A stretch of DNA of 64,000 bases from Picocystis sp. L7 (Eukaryota > Chlorophyta > Picocystophyceae > Picocystales > Picocystaceae): contig QXJR01000015.1 in NCBI GenBank assembly GCA_020975725.1, forward strand, positions 124,001-188,000, written 5' to 3'. The notes under the pieces were generated by a model, which was not told the DNA's origin, searched no databases, and saw only the letters and a program-made list of their open reading frames with translations. The translations under genes and the position numbers were made by a program. Below are positions 4,814 through 41,889 of this stretch, piece by piece; the stretch's first letter is position 1; the number at the start of each line of letters is the position of its first letter.

Positions 4814-5284
4814 TCACAAATACGTACCGGGCGGTTGTGGTACAACGGCATCTTCCATGTACAACGATGACATGTCACCTTCCTCTACTTGCATTTTCCT
4901 CTGCAGGGCGTGGTGATACGACTGGAAGAACTCCGGATTCTGCTCCTCGAGCCGGTTCCAGACGATGCGGGTGAAGGAGGGTTGAATCTTCGCGTCTTTT
5001 TCCAGCAGGGCCACCGTCTCGTCCTGAGTAAGCAGATGGGAGATGCTGGTTTCTACGAGGAGATGCACCTGTTGGATGTCTTCGAAGGTTACCGTCCTGG
5101 CTTCTTCTATCCTATTGCCTTCGTTCCCATCCCCACGGAGCTCCATGGTCGAGGTCCCTCCAGCTTCGTTCCTGGTTCCCATGGACGCGTTTTTGCGCGT
5201 CCGGGCGGCTGGTCCGCGTCTGGAGGCGGCCGTCGCGGCTGCAGAGCTCGCGGATCCGCGTCCGCCAGGCGTGGGACGCAGCAT
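4814..5284 (-). CDS. plant protein of unknown function, PF09713 / TIGR01589 family
   Basis: The C-terminal about 75 residues match the small plant-specific domain known as A_thal_3526 (PF09713): VTFEDIQQVHLLVETSISHL, then a conserved IQPSFTRIVWNRLEEQNPEFF block. The biochemical function of the family is unknown. I start the gene at the ATG at 5284 (156 residues, A at -3). Two further in-frame ATGs downstream are possible alternatives, because the Ala/Arg-rich first about 60 residues carry no recognisable domain. The frame is open further upstream but without an ATG. Domain identity is firm, the start is not. Confidence 0.72.
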   Translation of the reverse strand: MLRPTPGGRGSASSAAATAASRRGPAARTRKNASMGTRNEAGGTSTMELRGDGNEGNRIEEARTVTFEDIQQVHLLVETSISHLLTQDETVALLEKDAKIQPSFTRIVWNRLEEQNPEFFQSYHHALQRKMQVEEGDMSSLYMEDAVVPQPPGTYL

Positions 5285-5991
5285 TCTTGCGGTTGGTGCG
5301 TGGACGATGCCGACGCACGTCGAAACGTTTGTGGACTCGATCCACGTAACCGAAGGGCACCCAACCCCGATCCAGAGGGCGCGTCTCAAATCCACCCCGG
5401 AGGATGGGGGATCGCCAAGACAGTGCGGGCGAAGTGAGGCGAAACGTACTGGAAGGGAGGGCGGATGGCGGGAACGTGCCGCAGAGGAAGGGTGTGGGAC
5501 GGGAGAGCACGCCCTCTGCGGGTATGGAAGGGGGGGATACCCGTGCCACCCACGTGGCAGGTCGTGCTCGAAGCGCGATGCAAGCCTGGCACGGGTTCGA
5601 ACGACGAACGAGGGGGCGGATTTCGGGGAGATCCCCCATGACACGAAGTCGTCCCCCAGCCGGCTGCCTCCTCCTCGACGGGGAACGGAGTCAGAACCCG
5701 CCCTGTGCCGATAGAAAAGCAATCGGCGAGGGGGCTCGCCCTCCAATCATCGCCCGCCAGCTCGGACGAGATATTTTTCTCCGTGCGGCGGTTGGGGAGA
5801 TCTTTCGGGGTGGGGCGGGGTCCAGGGTATCGATACCTTTCGTCTCGTCCATCGATAGGTGAGCGAGAGATGACAGAAGACGTCAAGGAAGACGACGTCG
5901 ATACCTTTCGGTGCCGCGTCTCGCCGAACCTGTCTTTCCGCCGCTCCTCCGGCGGGAAACCGGCGGGAAACGCCGTTGCTACACCAACGGC
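5285..5991. other. intergenic region left of the transposon, with tandem E2F-like sites and a hairpin
   Basis: No gene seen. GC-rich upstream region of the PF09713 gene. Near its right end are two GGCGGGAAA motifs in tandem (5951-5959 and 5962-5970), matching the E2F/DP consensus. A perfect 7-bp hairpin follows, GCCGTTG (5972-5978) with CAACGGC (5985-5991), directly abutting the transposon's left core. Confidence 0.5.
5951..5970. promoter_or_regulatory. tandem E2F-like motifs GGCGGGAAA
   Basis: Two GGCGGGAAA copies 11 bp apart. The motif matches the conserved E2F/DP binding consensus. The controlled gene is unclear, because the transposon array has been inserted immediately to the right. Confidence 0.4.
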
Positions 5992-6001
5992 CTTTCTCGA
6001 G

Positions 6002-6025
6002 AAATATTGTAAGGTTTCGTTACAA
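6002..6025. repeat. left-end inverted arms of the transposon (possible recombinase site)
   Basis: AAATATTGTA (6002-6011), 9-nt spacer, then TACAA (6021-6025). This is a half-degenerate version of the perfect inverted pair seen elsewhere in the element. The counterpart in copy 2 is 8640-8663. Confidence 0.5.
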
Positions 6026-6156
6026 ACTGACCCTATTTATCGATATCTTTTGTAACCATTCGTCCAATATTTCGAAAATCTTTTCTTTTTCGGTCCCGAT
6101 TCCCCTTTCAAGGACCAAAAACGAAACCGGGGAAAACGAGATGCCAAAATTTATGG

Positions 6157-6185
6157 AAATATTGTATTGATATCTTACAATATTT
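6157..6185. repeat. perfect inverted repeat AAATATTGTA-N9-TACAATATTT, copy 1
   Basis: Arms 6157-6166 and 6176-6185 are perfect complements. The site lies about 30 bp upstream of the recombinase ATG, so it could be a recombinase-binding operator or a cryptic recombination site. The copy 2 counterpart is 8795-8823. Confidence 0.6.
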
Positions 6186-6214
6186 GATCTCGATCAACGC
6201 AGTTGAAAGTATCG

Positions 6215-8443
6215 ATGTTCGTCGACAGAGATATCTACCTTTTGTCGACCGTTGGGAGACGTACAACGACGAGCACGGAGGATTGGACGACGACGATGGC
6301 GCAAGACCCGAACGACTGCCTCGGCAACGAGCGCGTTCGAAGAGATGCCATCGATGTCTCTATGACTCGAGATATTCAAAGAATGAGCAGGTCCAAAGCT
6401 ACCTTGAGAGATTACACGACCAAAAACTCAAAGTTCCTTCTTTGGGCGATTGAGAACTATGAAGGGCTCAAAGAACTTGGTGCCCACGAATTTATGTGCG
6501 AAGATTGGGTAAAACGAGTGATTTTGCAAGATGAAAACCGAAGAGTGAAAGAGGTGAAGAATATACTTGCTAATATTGACCCTATAAATAGGAGTGGGTT
6601 GGAAGGTATCCTTCATTTGGATCGGTTGGACTTCTCCGCATGGAGCTACTTCCTTACAAGTATACGGCGCAAGAACAAAAACGGAGGGGAATCCTACTTG
6701 AAAAACTATGGCAATTTTAAGTCGGCCCTTCGCTTTTTGTTTCGTTCGGTGGGTGTGACTTTGCCACCATGGTTTGACACGCATGCAAAGGAGCTTGTCA
6801 CGGCCCTTAGGAGAGTCTCTGCTCAAGAGCGTGGGGAAGATGCCGGAGAGTCACATCAAGTGGGAAAATGCTCTCTCCCGTTTCCTCTCTATTGTGCAAT
6901 GGCGCATGAGCTTCTTCGAGATGGATTGTGGAGTGCCCACTTCATTCATGTGTACTCATGGAATCTCTCGGCAAGGGCATCTACAACTTGTGCTCTACGG
7001 CTATCTCACTTTGCTTGGGACAATGATTGCATGAAGATTTACATTCCAACACAAAAGAATGATCAAGATGGAGGGAAGCAAGGTCAATATCCACACCATG
7101 TGTATGCAAACCCAAACATTCCATACATATGCCCATTATTATCCTTGGCAATGTTTTTAGCCACTACCGAGAGGGCAGATTCAGATGGAAATGCTTTCTT
7201 TGATGAACAAGCAGCTTATGCAAGGCATTCAAAGCAAATGGTAGCATGGAAAGAAAAAAATGTTGAAATGCTCCGTGCATATGGCCTTGAACCTAGTGAT
7301 ATCGGGACTCATAGCAACCGGAAAGGAAGTAGCACCTTCGTAACATCTGGGGTTACCGATGGCCCAAGCATTGTTGCTATGTGCAATCGAGCCGGATGGG
7401 ACACCGGCAAGGTGTTGAGCACCTACTTACGGTACGAGGCGGCCGGTGATCAATACATTGGTAGGATTGTGGCCGGCCTTTCACCATCAAGTGGAACAAA
7501 GTTTGCTCAGCTTCCTCCTCACTTCCTCCCCGGAGTAGATTTGCTGGTTCTTAATCAGCTCCTCAAAGTGGCATTTGGGAGTTTCACACGGAGACCACTA
7601 GTGCAACCTGTGTTGGAGCATTGTTTGGCCACTCTTTTGTTCCATGAGGCATTCTTGCTTCACGATTTGGGCCAAGGGAACCCTCTACGGTTTATACCGC
7701 TATGGCACGATCCATCCCGAGAGCATTTGAAGAGATTTCTGACCTGTGATGGCAATGAGGACAGATGTGGGAACGGCATCACGGCCACCGGCATACCGAT
7801 GAATGTGCACATCCTGTCCAGTTGCACATCAACAGCCAAGTCCATCGAGAAATTGAAGGACAACCTTCCTAAAGTTGTTCTTCAATGCCTCGAAGAAAGA
7901 GATGTTGACTGTGGGAACATCACATCAGCCTCCATCCGCAACATATTCCAAGAAATGATCCAGCCCCTCATGACGGCAGTGACGGAAAGCATCGAGGGTG
8001 GTGGGCAGCGGCCATGCGTACATCCACTTCAAGAGCCCAACATGCTTGGGCTCACACGTTTGCCAACAGCTCCTCTCCATATACCAACCAAAATATCTGT
8101 GAAAGCAGCCTTTGTGAGCTATTCATCAGGCCAAACTCCATGGAAAAGGCTCACAAACGCTATGGTGGACAAAAAAGACCGAGTATTGTTAGCCGACCTC
8201 AAGTTCATCATGGAACACATCGAACGCGAGTTGGTCAAGAAGAACGCATGGAACGGAGAAGTGCCCATCGATCCAAGCTACGCAACGAGGCTCTTTGATC
8301 TCGCGAAGGAGCATGTGCCCACGAAGACAAAACACGGACGTACCCTCATGTGGCGAAGCGCATGCTTATACCTCCGGAAGCAATGCAAGGCGAGGGCACA
8401 AGAAGACCAAGACGGGGACTCCTCGCCGCTTCCGCCATCTTGA
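6215..8443 (+). CDS. Crypton-like tyrosine recombinase, copy 1
   Basis: Site-specific tyrosine recombinase (YR) of the Crypton type, expected to integrate a circular DNA intermediate. 742 residues from the first ATG at 6215; an in-frame ATG at 6296 in a better context is an alternative start. Residues about 65-230 resemble an N-terminal core-binding domain. The catalytic core contains R254 (SARAS), a lysine near 281, the H366-x-x-R369 motif (THSNRKG), W395 and the nucleophile region YLRYEAAGDQYIGR, with Tyr404, 407 and 414 as candidates. About 300 residues follow the core with no domain I recognise; the end is basic. The frame is intact and probably functional. The family call rests on motif pattern, not on a search. 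Confidence 0.82.
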   Translation: MFVDRDIYLLSTVGRRTTTSTEDWTTTMAQDPNDCLGNERVRRDAIDVSMTRDIQRMSRSKATLRDYTTKNSKFLLWAIENYEGLKELGAHEFMCEDWVKRVILQDENRRVKEVKNILANIDPINRSGLEGILHLDRLDFSAWSYFLTSIRRKNKNGGESYLKNYGNFKSALRFLFRSVGVTLPPWFDTHAKELVTALRRVSAQERGEDAGESHQVGKCSLPFPLYCAMAHELLRDGLWSAHFIHVYSWNLSARASTTCALRLSHFAWDNDCMKIYIPTQKNDQDGGKQGQYPHHVYANPNIPYICPLLSLAMFLATTERADSDGNAFFDEQAAYARHSKQMVAWKEKNVEMLRAYGLEPSDIGTHSNRKGSSTFVTSGVTDGPSIVAMCNRAGWDTGKVLSTYLRYEAAGDQYIGRIVAGLSPSSGTKFAQLPPHFLPGVDLLVLNQLLKVAFGSFTRRPLVQPVLEHCLATLLFHEAFLLHDLGQGNPLRFIPLWHDPSREHLKRFLTCDGNEDRCGNGITATGIPMNVHILSSCTSTAKSIEKLKDNLPKVVLQCLEERDVDCGNITSASIRNIFQEMIQPLMTAVTESIEGGGQRPCVHPLQEPNMLGLTRLPTAPLHIPTKISVKAAFVSYSSGQTPWKRLTNAMVDKKDRVLLADLKFIMEHIERELVKKNAWNGEVPIDPSYATRLFDLAKEHVPTKTKHGRTLMWRSACLYLRKQCKARAQEDQDGDSSPLPPS

Positions 8444-8531
8444 TTCGCGTCTCCATTTCTCCCGCACGTGTGGTGCAGTCGACGACCTGTGTACTACACG
8501 ACGTAACGCAAACTAGGGCAAAGTCATTCCA

Positions 8532-8587
8532 TTAATCGATATTTCTTTCCTGCATCTATCGCGATCTTTTCCAAAGATATCGATTAA
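8532..8587. repeat. inverted repeat TTAATCGATAT near the right end, copy 1
   Basis: Arms TTAATCGATAT (8532-8542) and ATATCGATTAA (8577-8587) with a 34-nt spacer, in the 3' flank of the recombinase gene. It could be a transcript-end hairpin or a protein-binding pair. The copy 2 counterpart is 11170-11225. Confidence 0.5.
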
Positions 8588-8617
8588 AAATATTGTAACG
8601 ATCTCAATACAATATTT
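8588..8617. repeat. perfect inverted repeat AAATATTGTA-N10-TACAATATTT at the right end, copy 1
   Basis: Arms 8588-8597 and 8608-8617 are perfect complements. The site lies 12 bp before the CTTTC core (8630-8634), and the left-end arm pair of copy 2 starts 5 bp after the core. This arrangement resembles a YR recombination site. The copy 2 counterpart is 11226-11255. Confidence 0.6.
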
Positions 8618-8630
8618 CCAGGTAAAACAC

Positions 8631-11268
8631 TTTCTCGAGAAATATTGTAAGGTTTCGTTACAAACTGACCCTATTTATCGATATCTTTTGTAACCATTCG
8701 TCCAATATTTCGAAAATCTTTTCTTTTTCGGTCCCGATTCCCCTTTCAAGGACCAAAAACGAAACCGGGGAAAACGAGATGCCAAAATTTATGGAAATAT
8801 TGTATTGATATCTTACAATATTTGATCTCGATCAACGCAGTTGAAAGTATCGATGTTCGTCGACAGAGATATCTACCTTTTGTCGACCGTTGGGAGACGT
8901 ACAACGACGAGCACGGAGGATTGGACGACGACGATGGCGCAAGACCCGAACGACTGCCTCGGCAACGAGCGCGTTCGAAGAGATGCCATCGATGTCTCTA
9001 TGACTCGAGATATTCAAAGAATGAGCAGGTCCAAAGCTACCTTGAGAGATTACACGACCAAAAACTCAAAGTTCCTTCTTTGGGCGATTGAGAACTATGA
9101 AGGGCTCAAAGAACTTGGTGCCCACGAATTTATGTGCGAAGATTGGGTAAAACGAGTGATTTTGCAAGATGAAAACCGAAGAGTGAAAGAGGTGAAGAAT
9201 ATACTTGCTAATATTGACCCTATAAATAGGAGTGGGTTGGAAGGTATCCTTCATTTGGATCGGTTGGACTTCTCCGCATGGAGCTACTTCCTTACAAGTA
9301 TACGGCGCAAGAACAAAAACGGAGGGGAATCCTACTTGAAAAACTATGGCAATTTTAAGTCGGCCCTTCGCTTTTTGTTTCGTTCGGTGGGTGTGACTTT
9401 GCCACCATGGTTTGACACGCATGCAAAGGAGCTTGTCACGGCCCTTAGGAGAGTCTCTGCTCAAGAGCGTGGGGAAGATGCCGGAGAGTCACATCAAGTG
9501 GGAAAATGCTCTCTCCCGTTTCCTCTCTATTGTGCAATGGCGCATGAGCTTCTTCGAGATGGATTGTGGAGTGCCCACTTCATTCATGTGTACTCATGGA
9601 ATCTCTCGGCAAGGGCATCTACAACTTGTGCTCTACGGCTATCTCACTTTGCTTGGGACAATGATTGCATGAAGATTTACATTCCAACACAAAAGAATGA
9701 TCAAGATGGAGGGAAGCAAGGTCAATATCCACACCATGTGTATGCAAACCCAAACATTCCATACATATGCCCATTATTATCCTTGGCAATGTTTTTAGCC
9801 ACTACCGAGAGGGCAGATTCAGATGGAAATGCTTTCTTTGATGAACAAGCAGCTTATGCAAGGCATTCAAAGCAAATGGTAGCATGGAAAGAAAAAAATG
9901 TTGAAATGCTCCGTGCATATGGCCTTGAACCTAGTGATATCGGGACTCATAGCAACCGGAAAGGAAGTAGCACCTTCGTAACATCTGGGGTTACCGATGG
10001 CCCAAGCATTGTTGCTATGTGCAATCGAGCCGGATGGGACACCGGCAAGGTGTTGAGCACCTACTTACGGTACGAGGCGGCCGGTGATCAATACATTGGT
10101 AGGATTGTGGCCGGCCTTTCACCATCAAGTGGAACAAAGTTTGCTCAGCTTCCTCCTCACTTCCTCCCCGGAGTAGATTTGCTGGTTCTTAATCAGCTCC
10201 TCAAAGTGGCATTTGGGAGTTTCACACGGAGACCACTAGTGCAACCTGTGTTGGAGCATTGTTTGGCCACTCTTTTGTTCCATGAGGCATTCTTGCTTCA
10301 CGATTTGGGCCAAGGGAACCCTCTACGGTTTATACCGCTATGGCACGATCCATCCCGAGAGCATTTGAAGAGATTTCTGACCTGTGATGGCAATGAGGAC
10401 AGATGTGGGAACGGCATCACGGCCACCGGCATACCGATGAATGTGCACATCCTGTCCAGTTGCACATCAACAGCCAAGTCCATCGAGAAATTGAAGGACA
10501 ACCTTCCTAAAGTTGTTCTTCAATGCCTCGAAGAAAGAGATGTTGACTGTGGGAACATCACATCAGCCTCCATCCGCAACATATTCCAAGAAATGATCCA
10601 GCCCCTCATGACGGCAGTGACGGAAAGCATCGAGGGTGGTGGGCAGCGGCCATGCGTACATCCACTTCAAGAGCCCAACATGCTTGGGCTCACACGTTTG
10701 CCAACAGCTCCTCTCCATATACCAACCAAAATATCTGTGAAAGCAGCCTTTGTGAGCTATTCATCAGGCCAAACTCCATGGAAAAGGCTCACAAACGCTA
10801 TGGTGGACAAAAAAGACCGAGTATTGTTAGCCGACCTCAAGTTCATCATGGAACACATCGAACGCGAGTTGGTCAAGAAGAACGCATGGAACGGAGAAGT
10901 GCCCATCGATCCAAGCTACGCAACGAGGCTCTTTGATCTCGCGAAGGAGCATGTGCCCACGAAGACAAAACACGGACGTACCCTCATGTGGCGAAGCGCA
11001 TGCTTATACCTCCGGAAGCAATGCAAGGCGAGGGCACAAGAAGACCAAGACGGGGACTCCTCGCCGCTTCCGCCATCTTGATTCGCGTCTCCATTTCTCC
11101 CGCACGTGTGGTGCAGTCGACGACCTGTGTACTACACGACGTAACGCAAACTAGGGCAAAGTCATTCCATTAATCGATATTTCTTTCCTGCATCTATCGC
11201 GATCTTTTCCAAAGATATCGATTAAAAATATTGTAACGATCTCAATACAATATTTCCAGGTAAAACAC
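8631..11268 (+). mobile_element. Crypton-like tyrosine-recombinase DNA transposon, copy 2 (tandem)
   Basis: Second head-to-tail copy with the same period of 2,638 bp. The encoded protein and every minor reading frame match copy 1, so the copies appear identical. Its right end (TAAAACACTTTC) runs into host DNA at CCACCGG. The middle junction has the structure expected of a joined circle. Only one copy of the core lies at each boundary. Confidence 0.85.
8853..11081 (+). CDS. Crypton-like tyrosine recombinase, copy 2
   Basis: The same 742-residue recombinase as at 6215-8443, displaced by 2,638 bp, with the same ATG choice and the same R/K/HxxR/W/Y residues. No difference from copy 1 was found. 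The absence of any divergence implies very recent duplication, ongoing gene conversion, or an assembly duplication. Confidence 0.82.
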   Translation: MFVDRDIYLLSTVGRRTTTSTEDWTTTMAQDPNDCLGNERVRRDAIDVSMTRDIQRMSRSKATLRDYTTKNSKFLLWAIENYEGLKELGAHEFMCEDWVKRVILQDENRRVKEVKNILANIDPINRSGLEGILHLDRLDFSAWSYFLTSIRRKNKNGGESYLKNYGNFKSALRFLFRSVGVTLPPWFDTHAKELVTALRRVSAQERGEDAGESHQVGKCSLPFPLYCAMAHELLRDGLWSAHFIHVYSWNLSARASTTCALRLSHFAWDNDCMKIYIPTQKNDQDGGKQGQYPHHVYANPNIPYICPLLSLAMFLATTERADSDGNAFFDEQAAYARHSKQMVAWKEKNVEMLRAYGLEPSDIGTHSNRKGSSTFVTSGVTDGPSIVAMCNRAGWDTGKVLSTYLRYEAAGDQYIGRIVAGLSPSSGTKFAQLPPHFLPGVDLLVLNQLLKVAFGSFTRRPLVQPVLEHCLATLLFHEAFLLHDLGQGNPLRFIPLWHDPSREHLKRFLTCDGNEDRCGNGITATGIPMNVHILSSCTSTAKSIEKLKDNLPKVVLQCLEERDVDCGNITSASIRNIFQEMIQPLMTAVTESIEGGGQRPCVHPLQEPNMLGLTRLPTAPLHIPTKISVKAAFVSYSSGQTPWKRLTNAMVDKKDRVLLADLKFIMEHIERELVKKNAWNGEVPIDPSYATRLFDLAKEHVPTKTKHGRTLMWRSACLYLRKQCKARAQEDQDGDSSPLPPS

Positions 11269-11272
11269 TTTC
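11268..11272. other. right-hand CTTTC core (possible attachment site)
   Basis: The third occurrence of CTTTC at the 2,638-bp period (5992, 8630, 11268). Host DNA resumes after it. The inferred empty site reads GGCCTTTCCCACCGGAACG. A similar TTTCCCACCGGAA occurs near 63811. Confidence 0.6.
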
Positions 11273-12059
11273 CCACCGGAACGAGGCGACGCCAGCCTGG
11301 TCCCACCGTCCGGATCCCCTCTTCGCGGAATTTCGTCACCCCAGCGTCACCCCGCTCGCAACCCAACCCGATCTCCCGGGTCTAAACCAGATATCGACCC
11401 GGTCAAAGAGTCGGTTTACCCAAGATACTATGGAAGGGAGTTCCCGGTTCAATATCTCTTCCCTGCCTATTAAAATTTCTCGCTCCCGAGATGTACAGAC
11501 CGCCTTCCGACCGACAGATCGAAGAGATCGAAGGATGCAACCGACGGGACGACGAACGAAACGCTCGCTCGTCGCCGCAGGAACGACGCGAACGATGGAA
11601 CGAACGCGTGACGGACGTCTTGGAGCTGTGCGGGTGGAGGAAGAACGTGTCCACGTGCTGGAAAATGCGGAAATAGGGGAGGAGGCGCAGCTGGGTGTCG
11701 GTGGTGTAGATGCACGCGGTCGTTCAGGTGGCATGTTGTCGCGACACCTTCGTGCCTCTTGAACGATCGCGTTGTACCTGGGGAAACGTAGAAGGGTAGG
11801 GGAAAGATAAGAAAGGGGGTACAAGTTCAAGTTGACCTTGCTTGCTCGTATTTTGTGGCGAAGGATGGGGTCCCGGATCAACTCACCATAACGGTGCTTG
11901 TGGCCAGCCTTAGTAACAATTCGGAACGCTGGTTCGATTGAATCAAACAGCTTATCCACCTCCTCAAAAGTTACACCTTCGTTTCAGCTTTCTTTCAACG
12001 AATCTTGTGTAGCTAACACCATCATCCTTAGGTGGGGCGACCTCTCTCGTTTATGCGTC

Positions 12060-12813: not shown

Positions 12814-12840
12814 GGCCTCGTAGTCGGCGTCACCCCACGA

Positions 12841-12942
12841 GGGTGACGAAATTACCCGGATTTCCCTTCCTCCGGGCTCTTGTGTGGAAAACAGTGGGGA
12901 GAACAGACCGAAGGAAAACCCGTTCCGGTAATTTCGTCACCC
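12841..12942. repeat. inverted repeat GGGTGACGAAATTACCCGG
   Basis: GGGTGACGAAATTACCCGG (12841-12859) faces CCGGTAATTTCGTCACCC (12925-12942), with a single-base length difference and a 65-nt spacer. It may form a hairpin or mark ends of a small inserted element. Confidence 0.55.
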
Positions 12943-13460
12943 TCCCAGGGTGACCGAACCCCAAACCGGGCTGGATCTGGGGTGACGAAATGCCCAGAAC
13001 CCTCTCTCCATCGCGCACACGCGTTCCGTGCGGTCCTCCATGGCGCGTGATCGCGTCCACCTGCCCTGCCGCATCCCTCTTCCAGCCTGTCCATTGGGGA
13101 GGCATCGGAACGAATCGTATCTTCGGCGACCCTGGCGGATCCGACACGGACATCCGGGGTCCACCAATGAGAAGCCAGGGATCCACCTGGCCGTATCTCG
13201 GGACAGACCGGGGTCGCCCCCATCCAGGGGGCAATACACTTCGGATACTTTCGAAAAGGAACCAGGCGATCGAGACTGGTTCCCACCCGCTCTGCAGGTG
13301 CATGCACGATGGCAATGCTGCGTGGATGCCGCAAGAGGCGCGACCGGACGCTTCCACACGGAAGCGGGGGTTGCGAAGAGCGCAGATGTTGGAACTTCCT
13401 CCTACTTGCGGTGTCGTGGACAGGTGGATCGGTTCCCACCCGACGATGGCAAGCATTCAT

Positions 13461-25753: not shown

Positions 25754-27559
25754 ATGGCGGCGCGTGCTCTGCATGCGCTGATGGGCGTCGTCGTGGCCTG
25801 GACGGTGCTGGTGGAGGCCTCTCCGAACGTGGACCGCGACCACTGCACGGCCATGGGCGTGGGCAAGTCGGCGACGGTTCGTGGTGGGACCATGGTCTCC
25901 CACACCGACGACAGCGGTGACGCGACTTCGGACTTGCGTTTGGTGCGTGTGCCCGCCAAAGACCACGAACCTGGTGCGATGAGGCCCGTGTACCACATCC
26001 TGGACGGCTATCCCAGGCTTGTGGACGCCGAAAGGAGCCCGTACTACGCACCCGTCAACGGACAAAAACCAAGCACACCGCTGGGATACATTCCAGAGGT
26101 CGAACACACCTATGCGTACTGGGAACAGGATTATGCGCTGCAGAACGAACACGGATTGGCCATGGGAGAAAGCACCTGCGGGTCGAACGCGCAGCAAGCT
26201 TCCGTGGCAGACGGCGGGAAAGCTCTCATGGCCATCGAGGAACTCTCCAGAATCGCGTTGGAACGTTGCAAGACAGCGCGCTGTGCGGTCACCACCATGG
26301 GAGGACTGGGGGAACAGTACGGATTCTATGGCAGCGACCCTGGGTTGGGTGGGAGCGCGGAAGCTATGATTGTTGGGGATCAAGAGGAGGTGTGGGTGTT
26401 CCACATATTGCCCCATCCGGTGAACGGTTCCACGGCCGTCTGGATTTCTCAACGAGTGCCTGACGACGAGATGGTTGTGGTTGCGAATATGTTCGTCATC
26501 CGTCACATAGACTTGGACGACCCCGAGTGGTTCTTAGGATCGGCAAACGTCAAATCAGCTGCTCTGGAACAAGGGTGGTGGGACGGTGAAAAAGAATTCG
26601 ACTTCACTGCAGCATACGCATACAACCAGCTCTCGCCCCTGCTTCACAAGAATGACTACTACTCCGGTCGCAGAATCTGGCGGATCTTTGACTGGGTCGC
26701 ACCCTCTCTTCACTTGGACTCGACCCTGGGACACGTTCCGGAGAAGCCAACTTATCCATTCAGTGTAAAGCCGGATGAAAGGGTGGAAGAGAACACACTG
26801 ATGATGATCATGAAAGATCACTATGAAGGAACAGAGTATGACCTCACCAAAGGTCTAGCAGCCGGGCCTTTTGGCAACCCCAATCGATATGCTGGTGGAA
26901 GAGGAGAGAATGTCGTGTTCCCATATGGAGGATGGGAGCGGGCGATCAGCATGTACCGGACCACCTACAGTTTCATCGGAGTAATACGAGATGCCCCTGT
27001 TACGGGACACTACATTTGGTACGGACAAGATGCCCCACATGGGACCTGTTACGTTCCTGTGTATGCAAACCAAAACAGCGTGCCAGCTGCCTGGTACACA
27101 GGCGTACAAAGCGAGTTCTCAAGGGATTCTGCCTGGTGGGCATTCAATTTTGTAAACCAGTGGACAACTCTGAAGTACTCGTACATAATCAAGGATGTTC
27201 AAGCGGCAGCTTTTGCTTGGCAAGCCAAAGGATTTGAGTTGATCAAGGAAATCGACGGTCTGTCCAACATGGCCGTTAGCGATGCGGACGCTTTGGTTCT
27301 GTATGCCGAGAAGAAAGCTAATTCCTTTTCAAGCGAACTACTTGATTCCTGGTGGAAGCTTTCCGATTTCTTGATTTCAAAGTACTACAATGGTTATATA
27401 ACTGAGGGAGAAGGGGAACGCCAGGCCGTGGGGTATCCTGCGTGGTGGTTGGAATCTGTAGGTACGTATGTGAACTATCCTAATGGGGACGTGGAGCCAA
27501 AGCCTTGTAAGCCAGATGGCAAACCAGTCGGTGGCTTCCGGAAAATAGACTTTCTCTGA
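25754..27559 (+). CDS. secreted or vacuolar peptidase family C69 (dipeptidase-type)
   Basis: 601 residues, single exon, ATG at 25754. The N-terminus MAARALHALMGVVVAWTVLV is a signal peptide. The maturation point appears to be Cys31 in RDHCTAMGVGKSATVRGG, which matches the N-terminal-nucleophile cysteine of the C69 dipeptidase family; removal of the preceding residues would expose it. Further family blocks are EHGLAMGESTC, MGGLGEQYGFYG, VWVFHILP and the MVVVANMFVIR region. The protein continues to the length usual for eukaryotic members. It probably hydrolyses dipeptides in an acidic compartment or outside the cell. The exact substrate is unknown. Confidence 0.88.
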   Translation: MAARALHALMGVVVAWTVLVEASPNVDRDHCTAMGVGKSATVRGGTMVSHTDDSGDATSDLRLVRVPAKDHEPGAMRPVYHILDGYPRLVDAERSPYYAPVNGQKPSTPLGYIPEVEHTYAYWEQDYALQNEHGLAMGESTCGSNAQQASVADGGKALMAIEELSRIALERCKTARCAVTTMGGLGEQYGFYGSDPGLGGSAEAMIVGDQEEVWVFHILPHPVNGSTAVWISQRVPDDEMVVVANMFVIRHIDLDDPEWFLGSANVKSAALEQGWWDGEKEFDFTAAYAYNQLSPLLHKNDYYSGRRIWRIFDWVAPSLHLDSTLGHVPEKPTYPFSVKPDERVEENTLMMIMKDHYEGTEYDLTKGLAAGPFGNPNRYAGGRGENVVFPYGGWERAISMYRTTYSFIGVIRDAPVTGHYIWYGQDAPHGTCYVPVYANQNSVPAAWYTGVQSEFSRDSAWWAFNFVNQWTTLKYSYIIKDVQAAAFAWQAKGFELIKEIDGLSNMAVSDADALVLYAEKKANSFSSELLDSWWKLSDFLISKYYNGYITEGEGERQAVGYPAWWLESVGTYVNYPNGDVEPKPCKPDGKPVGGFRKIDFL

Positions 27560-41513: not shown

Positions 41514-41637
41514 GAGTCTATGATGATGCATGTTTAAGGGCGTTTCTCAAAAACATTCGCAGGCCCGCACTAGAGTTTTCCTCAGCGCCGAGTTGAGAAC
41601 TGTTGCAGAAATAATCTTCCTTGGATGTCTGAGACTC
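41514..41637 (+). ncRNA. U14: U14 snoRNA (SNORD14/snR128), copy 1
   Basis: U14 is an essential C/D snoRNA needed for early 18S processing. Stem GAGTC/GACTC (41514-41518, 41633-41637), C box ATGATGA (41520-41526), and D box CTGA (41629-41632). It contains both U14 rRNA-pairing elements: CATTCGCAG (41554-41562), antisense to CTGCGAATG of 18S, and CTTCCTTGGATGT (41616-41628), antisense to ACATCCAAGGAAG of 18S, directly before box D. About 124 nt. Confidence 0.9.
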
Positions 41638-41880
41638 CTGCAATGATCGATGGCCACACCAGAGGTCACAAAAAGGGAATGAATTTGGAGATGGTTGCTG
41701 ACCAGCCTGCTGTTTTCCGTAGGTGTACCTTAAATGGTAAGTTGAAGAATGAGTTTGTCGAACGTGGCCAGTGACGATACTGCTTTAAGGGCGTTTCTCA
41801 AAAACATTCGCAGGCCCGCACTAGAGTTTTCCTCAGCGCCGAGTTGAGAACTGTTGCAGAAATAATCTTCCTTGGATGTC
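41533..41880 (+). repeat. 97-bp perfect direct repeat (U14 core)
   Basis: 41533-41629 and 41784-41880 are identical at a spacing of 251 bp; the flanks diverge. This is the shared body of the two U14 genes. Confidence 0.9.
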
Positions 41881-41889
41881 CGAGGCCAC
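41764..41889 (+). ncRNA. U14: U14 snoRNA, copy 2 with variant boxes
   Basis: Same 97-nt core as copy 1, including CATTCGCAG (41805-41813) and CTTCCTTGGATGT (41867-41879). The closing stem is different but pairs perfectly: GTGGCC (41764-41769) with GGCCAC (41884-41889). The C box is GTGACGA and the D box CCGA, each one step from consensus, so function may be weaker or lost. The re-paired stem argues for constraint after duplication. Confidence 0.8.

Follow-up and report, generated by a model that had tools for sequence, protein, structure and literature searches.

The window analysed here, a 64,000-nucleotide stretch of the green alga Picocystis sp. L7, holds a long unit twice in direct succession, which raises the question of what this unit is and by which route it came to stand in tandem. 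The first-pass annotation had proposed a Crypton whose tyrosine recombinase inserted a circular form beside a resident copy by crossover within a short core. The answer we consider fairly probable is a compact, recently active Crypton-like transposon that inserts by way of a joined-ends circle, and whose sole long gene encodes a tyrosine recombinase. The comparisons with published systems below draw on excerpts of the cited papers.

The tandem unit and the restored host palindrome

The unit and its core were delimited by comparing the window with itself at an offset of +2638, which yielded the following features:

5992-8629, + strand: element copy 1, 2,638 bp, starting with core CTTTC; identical to copy 2, including the next core
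8630-11267, + strand: element copy 2, identical to copy 1
5992-5996, + strand: core CTTTC at the left host/element border; exact repeat, with a GC step from 0.66 to 0.31
8630-8634, + strand: core CTTTC at the joined-ends junction; exact repeat
11268-11272, + strand: core CTTTC at the right element/host border; exact repeat, with a GC step from 0.30 to 0.67

Two copies of the 2,638-bp unit stand head-to-tail with 0 mismatches between them, and the run of identity between 5992-8634 and the sequence one offset downstream spans 2,643 bases, i.e., one period plus five. The core common to the outer ends and the junction is exactly 5 bp long: the base 5' of CTTTC is C at the left border and A at the junction, and the base 3' of it is T at the junction and C at the right border, so the core stops at both points. 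Because the copies are identical, a spacing of one period between the first two occurrences of CTTTC follows automatically, and the third alone is informative. Among random pairs of breakpoints taken from the flanks, 0.55% share a run of at least 5 bp. In 100-bp bins, the GC content changes abruptly at both outer borders. The head-to-tail repetition, the shared CTTTC and the sharp host/element transitions claimed by the first-pass annotation are thereby confirmed.

Given 0 differences in 2,638 sites, the divergence between copies is below about 0.11% (95% bound, rule of three); hence, either the tandem event was recent or the copies have been homogenised. Tandem Repeats Finder was silent on this tandem because its longest period is 500. 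When the unit was used as a query against the rest of the window, neither blastn nor tblastx returned a further convincing copy: the best off-element matches had an E-value of 0.027 over 20 bp and of 0.005 over 21-22 residues, respectively, and these short matches are taken as chance. CTTTC as a core is known from one insertion locus.

Joining the two host flanks with a single CTTTC gives CCGGCGGGAAACGCCGTTG-CTACAC-CAACGGCCTTTCCCACCGG, a 44-bp palindrome with a 6-bp loop, which is distributed over the flanks as follows:

5960-5991, no strand: left host part of the palindrome, comprising the left arm (5960-5978), the loop CTACAC (5979-5984) and bases 1-7 of the right arm (5985-5991)
11268-11279, no strand: right-arm remainder of the palindrome, 12 bases (CTTTCCCACCGG)

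The arms pair at 17 of 19 positions with one core, at 10 of 19 without a core, and at 13 of 19 with two cores. Since the palindrome is best in the one-core register, the flanks would once have been contiguous with one CTTTC, and no host base would have been lost. This restored palindrome, which is new beyond the original tandem observation, indicates where the element's boundaries lie and what the empty site was, without recourse to a second genome. The inner seven pairs lie wholly within the left flank, and the outer twelve positions are the evidence for a spanning insertion: ten of them match, a score equalled by 5 of 116,802 flank 12-mers on both strands. For the seven outer positions contributed by the right flank alone, six match, which 149 of the 116,802 equal. 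A one-core empty site would also be left by a target-site duplication, and hence does not prove a core crossover by itself.

When loops of 3-12 and at most two mismatches are allowed, a threshold chosen after viewing the site (n = 1), every other stem with a short loop in the 58.7 kb of flank is shorter than the palindrome. No other 19-column stem with 17 pairs was found in the flanks or in three flank shuffles. Stems of at least 17 columns cover 44 of 58,724 bp, which is the length of the palindrome site, and this site falls within them; with looser cut-offs, the coverage grows to 158 bp at 14 columns and 880 bp at 12, the site still being included. Folding energy sets the site less apart: among 14,665 overlapping 64-base windows, 53 reach its stability, a count that takes in its own window, and certain windows elsewhere exceed it.

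The opposite arm of the palindrome reads GTTTC, not CTTTC, so the exact core is present on one arm only. A preference of the element for palindromic targets is possible, judging from one site, and palindromes around further copies would point to structure-guided target choice. The full proposal is that a green-alga tyrosine-recombinase transposon picks host palindromes as targets, recombines within a 5-bp core on one arm and forms its tandem arrays out of circles, which in our estimation is improbable; in the parts of the literature compared, such a combination of fixed core and structural target is not described for Cryptons. The palindrome may also have a function of its own. The sequence GGCGGGAAA occurs twice in the left-arm region (5951 and 5962), as well as at 26213 and 54553, and resembles an E2F site; the palindrome may therefore serve as part of a promoter, in which case its use as a target would be incidental. 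Beside the insertion, at 5949-5970, stand two adjoining exact copies of CCGGCGGGAAA, which contains GGCGGGAAA.

Gene and ends of the element

In the open reading frame listing, a single long intact ORF appears per unit:

6296-8443, + strand: recombinase-like ORF of copy 1, encoding 715 aa if started at ATG 6296; signature compared with lambda Int, Cre and XerD
8934-11081, + strand: recombinase-like ORF of copy 2, identical to that of copy 1

The open frame in copy 1 holds a further ATG at 6215. The encoded protein carries a tyrosine-recombinase-like signature composed of R227, K254, H339xxR342, W368 and Y377. As yardsticks, the fetched records of lambda Int (R212, H308, R311, H333, Y342), Cre (R173, H289, R292, W315, Y324) and XerD (R148, H244, R247, H270, Y279) were used. 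The identity of the catalytic arginines in these three enzymes is established, and a role for K254 is presumed from established knowledge and by analogy. The distance from the first Arg to His is 112 residues in the ORF, against 96 in lambda Int, 116 in Cre and 96 in XerD, and that from the second Arg to His/Trp is 26, against 22, 23 and 23. From His/Trp to Tyr there are nine residues in all four proteins, a spacing that the search pattern demanded. The loose motif spacing is matched by 28 of 2,000 shuffles of the element protein and by 0 of 79 flank frames of at least 200 codons, and three different Arg residues of the element protein satisfy it. The R-K-HxxR-W-Y signature thus points to a tyrosine recombinase and is suggestive, not proof.

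Searches of Pfam, NCBIfam and the PDB with the element protein gave no tyrosine recombinase match. The weak matches obtained were DUF5617 (E = 0.079, under its cut-off), a PHROG of unknown function (E = 0.34), HUWE1 (E = 0.2 to 0.83) and a further two chains (E = 0.8). The fold was modelled twice from the single sequence, and the models, with a mean pLDDT of 34 and 40, were unusable; with the second as Foldseek query, nothing reached E ≤ 0.001 and the 50 matches listed held no recombinase, a search that is uninformative given such a query. The ORF, which matched no family convincingly, showed no reverse transcriptase or DDE transposase domain in Pfam. The putative assignment to the recombinases was made from the motif, the anatomy of the element and its ends.

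These ends carry a recurrent 10-mer, AAATATTGTA, found directly or as its complement exactly five times per unit (6002, 6157, 6176, 8588 and 8608). The exact 10-mer is absent from the whole window outside the units, and in 500 shuffles of the unit it occurred 0.008 times on average and never more than once, bearing in mind that the motif was picked after viewing. Allowing one mismatch adds one site within the unit and yields two sites in flanking DNA. The motif is arranged as follows:

6002-6011, + strand: left-end AAATATTGTA motif
6157-6185, no strand: internal dyad AAATATTGTA-N9-TACAATATTT, located ahead of the ORF; by identity, copy 2 has it at 8795-8823
8588-8617, no strand: right-end dyad AAATATTGTA-N10-TACAATATTT of copy 1; copy 2 at 11226-11255
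8608-8649, no strand: joined-ends site, TACAATATTTC, 20 bp containing CTTTC, and GAAATATTGTA; perfect 11-bp inverted arms

Read directly, the termini have no terminal inverted repeats and no long terminal direct repeats, and the inverted motifs are subterminal only. The 11-bp arms lie 4 bp from the core at the left end of the element and 11 bp from it at the right, such that the core is off-centre in the 20-bp gap between the junction arms. Arms of 11-13 bp with a spacer of 6-8 bp are given as typical for such recombinases in the excerpt of PMC3212892. Given the off-centre core and a gap wider than this spacer, the junction arms are probably not inner binding sites. The end motifs and dyads look like candidate binding sites of the recombinase or of an accessory factor, and the dyad preceding the gene could allow the recombinase to regulate itself. 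This dyad, at 6157-6185, has the same half-sites as the right-end dyad, its spacer being 9 bp long where that of the other is 10 bp, a likeness that suggests self-regulation by an end-binding protein.

Routes to the tandem

In the proposed mechanism, the recombinase, if catalytically active, would excise the element by a crossover between the two terminal CTTTC, and the ends joined in the excised circle would read ...aaaaca-CTTTC-tcgaga... The circle would then reinsert by a crossover inside CTTTC at a host CTTTC, here within one arm of the 44-bp palindrome, giving host-CTTTC-element-CTTTC-host with all host bases kept. A tandem would arise when the recombinase acts at the CTTTC of a resident copy, whether by insertion of a circle, by way of a dimeric circle, or by attL x attR exchange between sisters. 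This reading brings together the identical copies, the exact core, the repeated end motifs, the recombinase-like signature and the single-core empty site. The dimeric circle, the sister exchange and a microhomology duplication all leave the same sequence as insertion of a circle. The anatomy gives good support to an element with a short core, a joined-ends junction, an exact empty site and a gene of recombinase-like type. The claim that a circle inserted beside a resident copy describes one of several equivalent routes, and to call the locus direct evidence of the insertion mode, as had been done, was too strong.

The rival reading given most weight is a single insertion followed by duplication through microhomology repair or template switching between the 5-bp terminal repeats, with neither recombinase nor circle involved in making the tandem; it would yield exactly the observed sequence. 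Shared stretches of 5 bp are the kind used in microhomology repair, and CTTTC is frequent here: CTTTC/GAAAG ranks 17th of 512 5-mer classes, with 248 counts in the window (element included) against a median of 125. However, both breakpoints would have to land exactly on the terminal 5-mers, and the element itself encodes a recombinase-like protein able in principle to cut there, so we regard this duplication as unlikely. A slimmer chance still is given to a transposon of DDE type or with an enzyme of another kind, for which CTTTC would be a duplicated 5-bp target and the tandem secondary. A single site cannot tell such a duplication from a core, the one-core empty site fits both, and the profile searches recognised no tyrosine recombinase; against it stand the R-K-HxxR-W-Y signature, with spacing near that of Cre, and termini that are not inverted repeats, the 11-bp arms being subterminal at unequal distances from the core.

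The tandem is known from assembled sequence alone and its copies are 100% identical, as would also be expected if a single chromosomal copy existed alongside joined-ends circles, or the population were mixed, and the assembler had rendered this as two copies. We consider such an artefact quite improbable, since an assembler is unlikely to create a junction on a 5-bp overlap. By the same reasoning, a joined-ends molecule should exist even if the tandem as such does not exist in the cell. Three further explanations were rejected. The restored palindrome, which indicates that the unit is an insert, speaks against an ordinary tandem duplication of host DNA, and the lack of a reverse-transcriptase match and of long terminal repeats speaks against an LTR or DIRS-type retroelement. 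Insertion in a tRNA or Rfam gene was discarded because neither Rfam at its gathering scores nor ARAGORN reported such a gene in the window, the latter program being run with the bacterial code, a setting that could miss intron-bearing nuclear tRNAs.

For the transposon with a joined-ends circle, which we prefer, the junction, the two intact identical genes and the base-exact empty site provide a concrete, PCR-testable site for the Crypton circle model in an alga.

Related systems and host neighbourhood

Cryptons are described in PMC3212892 (Kojima and Jurka 2011), as far as excerpted, as having a recombinase gene, terminal direct repeats of 4-6 bp and no terminal inverted repeats, with a proposed circle; excision as circles was proposed there by analogy with prokaryotic elements. 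The present element is alike in its lack of terminal inverted repeats and its 5-bp terminal direct repeats, and its gene is recombinase-like by motif. Among the groups named in that excerpt (CryptonF, S, A and I), most CryptonS members have TATGG termini, whereas CTTTC is found here, which still allows membership, and CryptonF has a GCR1_C DNA-binding domain, whereas GCR1_C was matched neither by the full protein (E ≤ 1) nor by its C-terminal part (E ≤ 10). The hosts listed in the excerpt are animals, fungi, oomycetes and a diatom, in contrast with the green-lineage host of this element, though a DUF3504 gene from a green-alga mitochondrion is mentioned in the same source, and an abbreviation for C. 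reinhardtii stands in one of its figure legends. The element is thus Crypton-like by anatomy, and the Crypton identity given in the first-pass annotation is plausible but not proven, as the searches of IMG/VR, GTDB genome contigs, plasmids and phages returned no sequence relative, the profile searches gave no recombinase match, and no fold model was usable. The literature search, covering titles and abstract openings, found no Crypton tandem.

Head-to-tail copies are known from other elements. Salmonella genomic island 1, a tyrosine-recombinase element, forms such arrays, in which neighbouring copies meet at an attP-like joint, as here (PMC2297512, in excerpt), but it is bacterial and 42 kb long with an 18-bp site, compared with 2.6 kb and a 5-bp core, and its arrays were seen by Southern blot and PFGE, whereas the present tandem comes from assembled sequence. 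The endogenous phaeoviruses of Ectocarpus, from what the excerpt of PMC13236599 describes, are a close mechanistic analogue in brown algae: their tyrosine-recombinase integration uses minimal core homology, and in the circular form the core is flanked by AT-rich inverted repeats. They are, however, giant viruses with a CC core, whereas the present element is 2.6 kb long, carries a single long gene and has a 5-bp core. Among eukaryotic transposons, Helitron and KolobokP also occur in head-to-tail multimers, and circular intermediates are supported for Helitrons and are one of two proposed routes for KolobokP, according to the excerpts of PMC5148889 and PMC9587614. These elements differ in enzyme, namely a rolling-circle Rep/helicase in Helitron and a DDD/E transposase plus homing endonuclease in KolobokP (same excerpts), and no Pfam domain of either kind was found in the element ORF.

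Relatives were sought in sequence collections. Among plasmids and phages, tblastn of the element protein gave no match. A strict motif pattern, which finds both copies in the window, had 0 matches in IMG/VR and the GTDB genome contigs. In a separate search for related loci, three stretches in IMG/VR and eight in the GTDB contigs matched a pattern, 0 of which were confirmed. With relaxed patterns, IMG/VR gave one locus for one pattern and seven for another; the single locus had stop codons in the matched frame, and the relaxed-pattern loci that were read had no tblastn match at E ≤ 1 and were rejected as chance. A further IMG/VR locus, retrieved by the dyad pattern, was set aside by eye, as its listed ORFs are unlike the element's.

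An ORF with a plant protein 1589 (A_thal_3526) domain has its first ATG at 5284, and the element is inserted roughly 700 bp upstream of it. The neighbouring genes also include a PAS/kinase protein, read as phototropin-like, and a sigma-70 factor, read as plastid-type; together, these neighbours suggest a green-alga host. At 12829-12954, a 53-nt inverted repeat, 74% complementary and with 20 nt between its arms, could be a decayed foldback element; its CGTCACCC-type motifs are also seen at 11334-11353, near the right border. Farther along, 41521-41884 holds a pair of 113-nt direct repeats that are 95% identical and spaced 251 bp.
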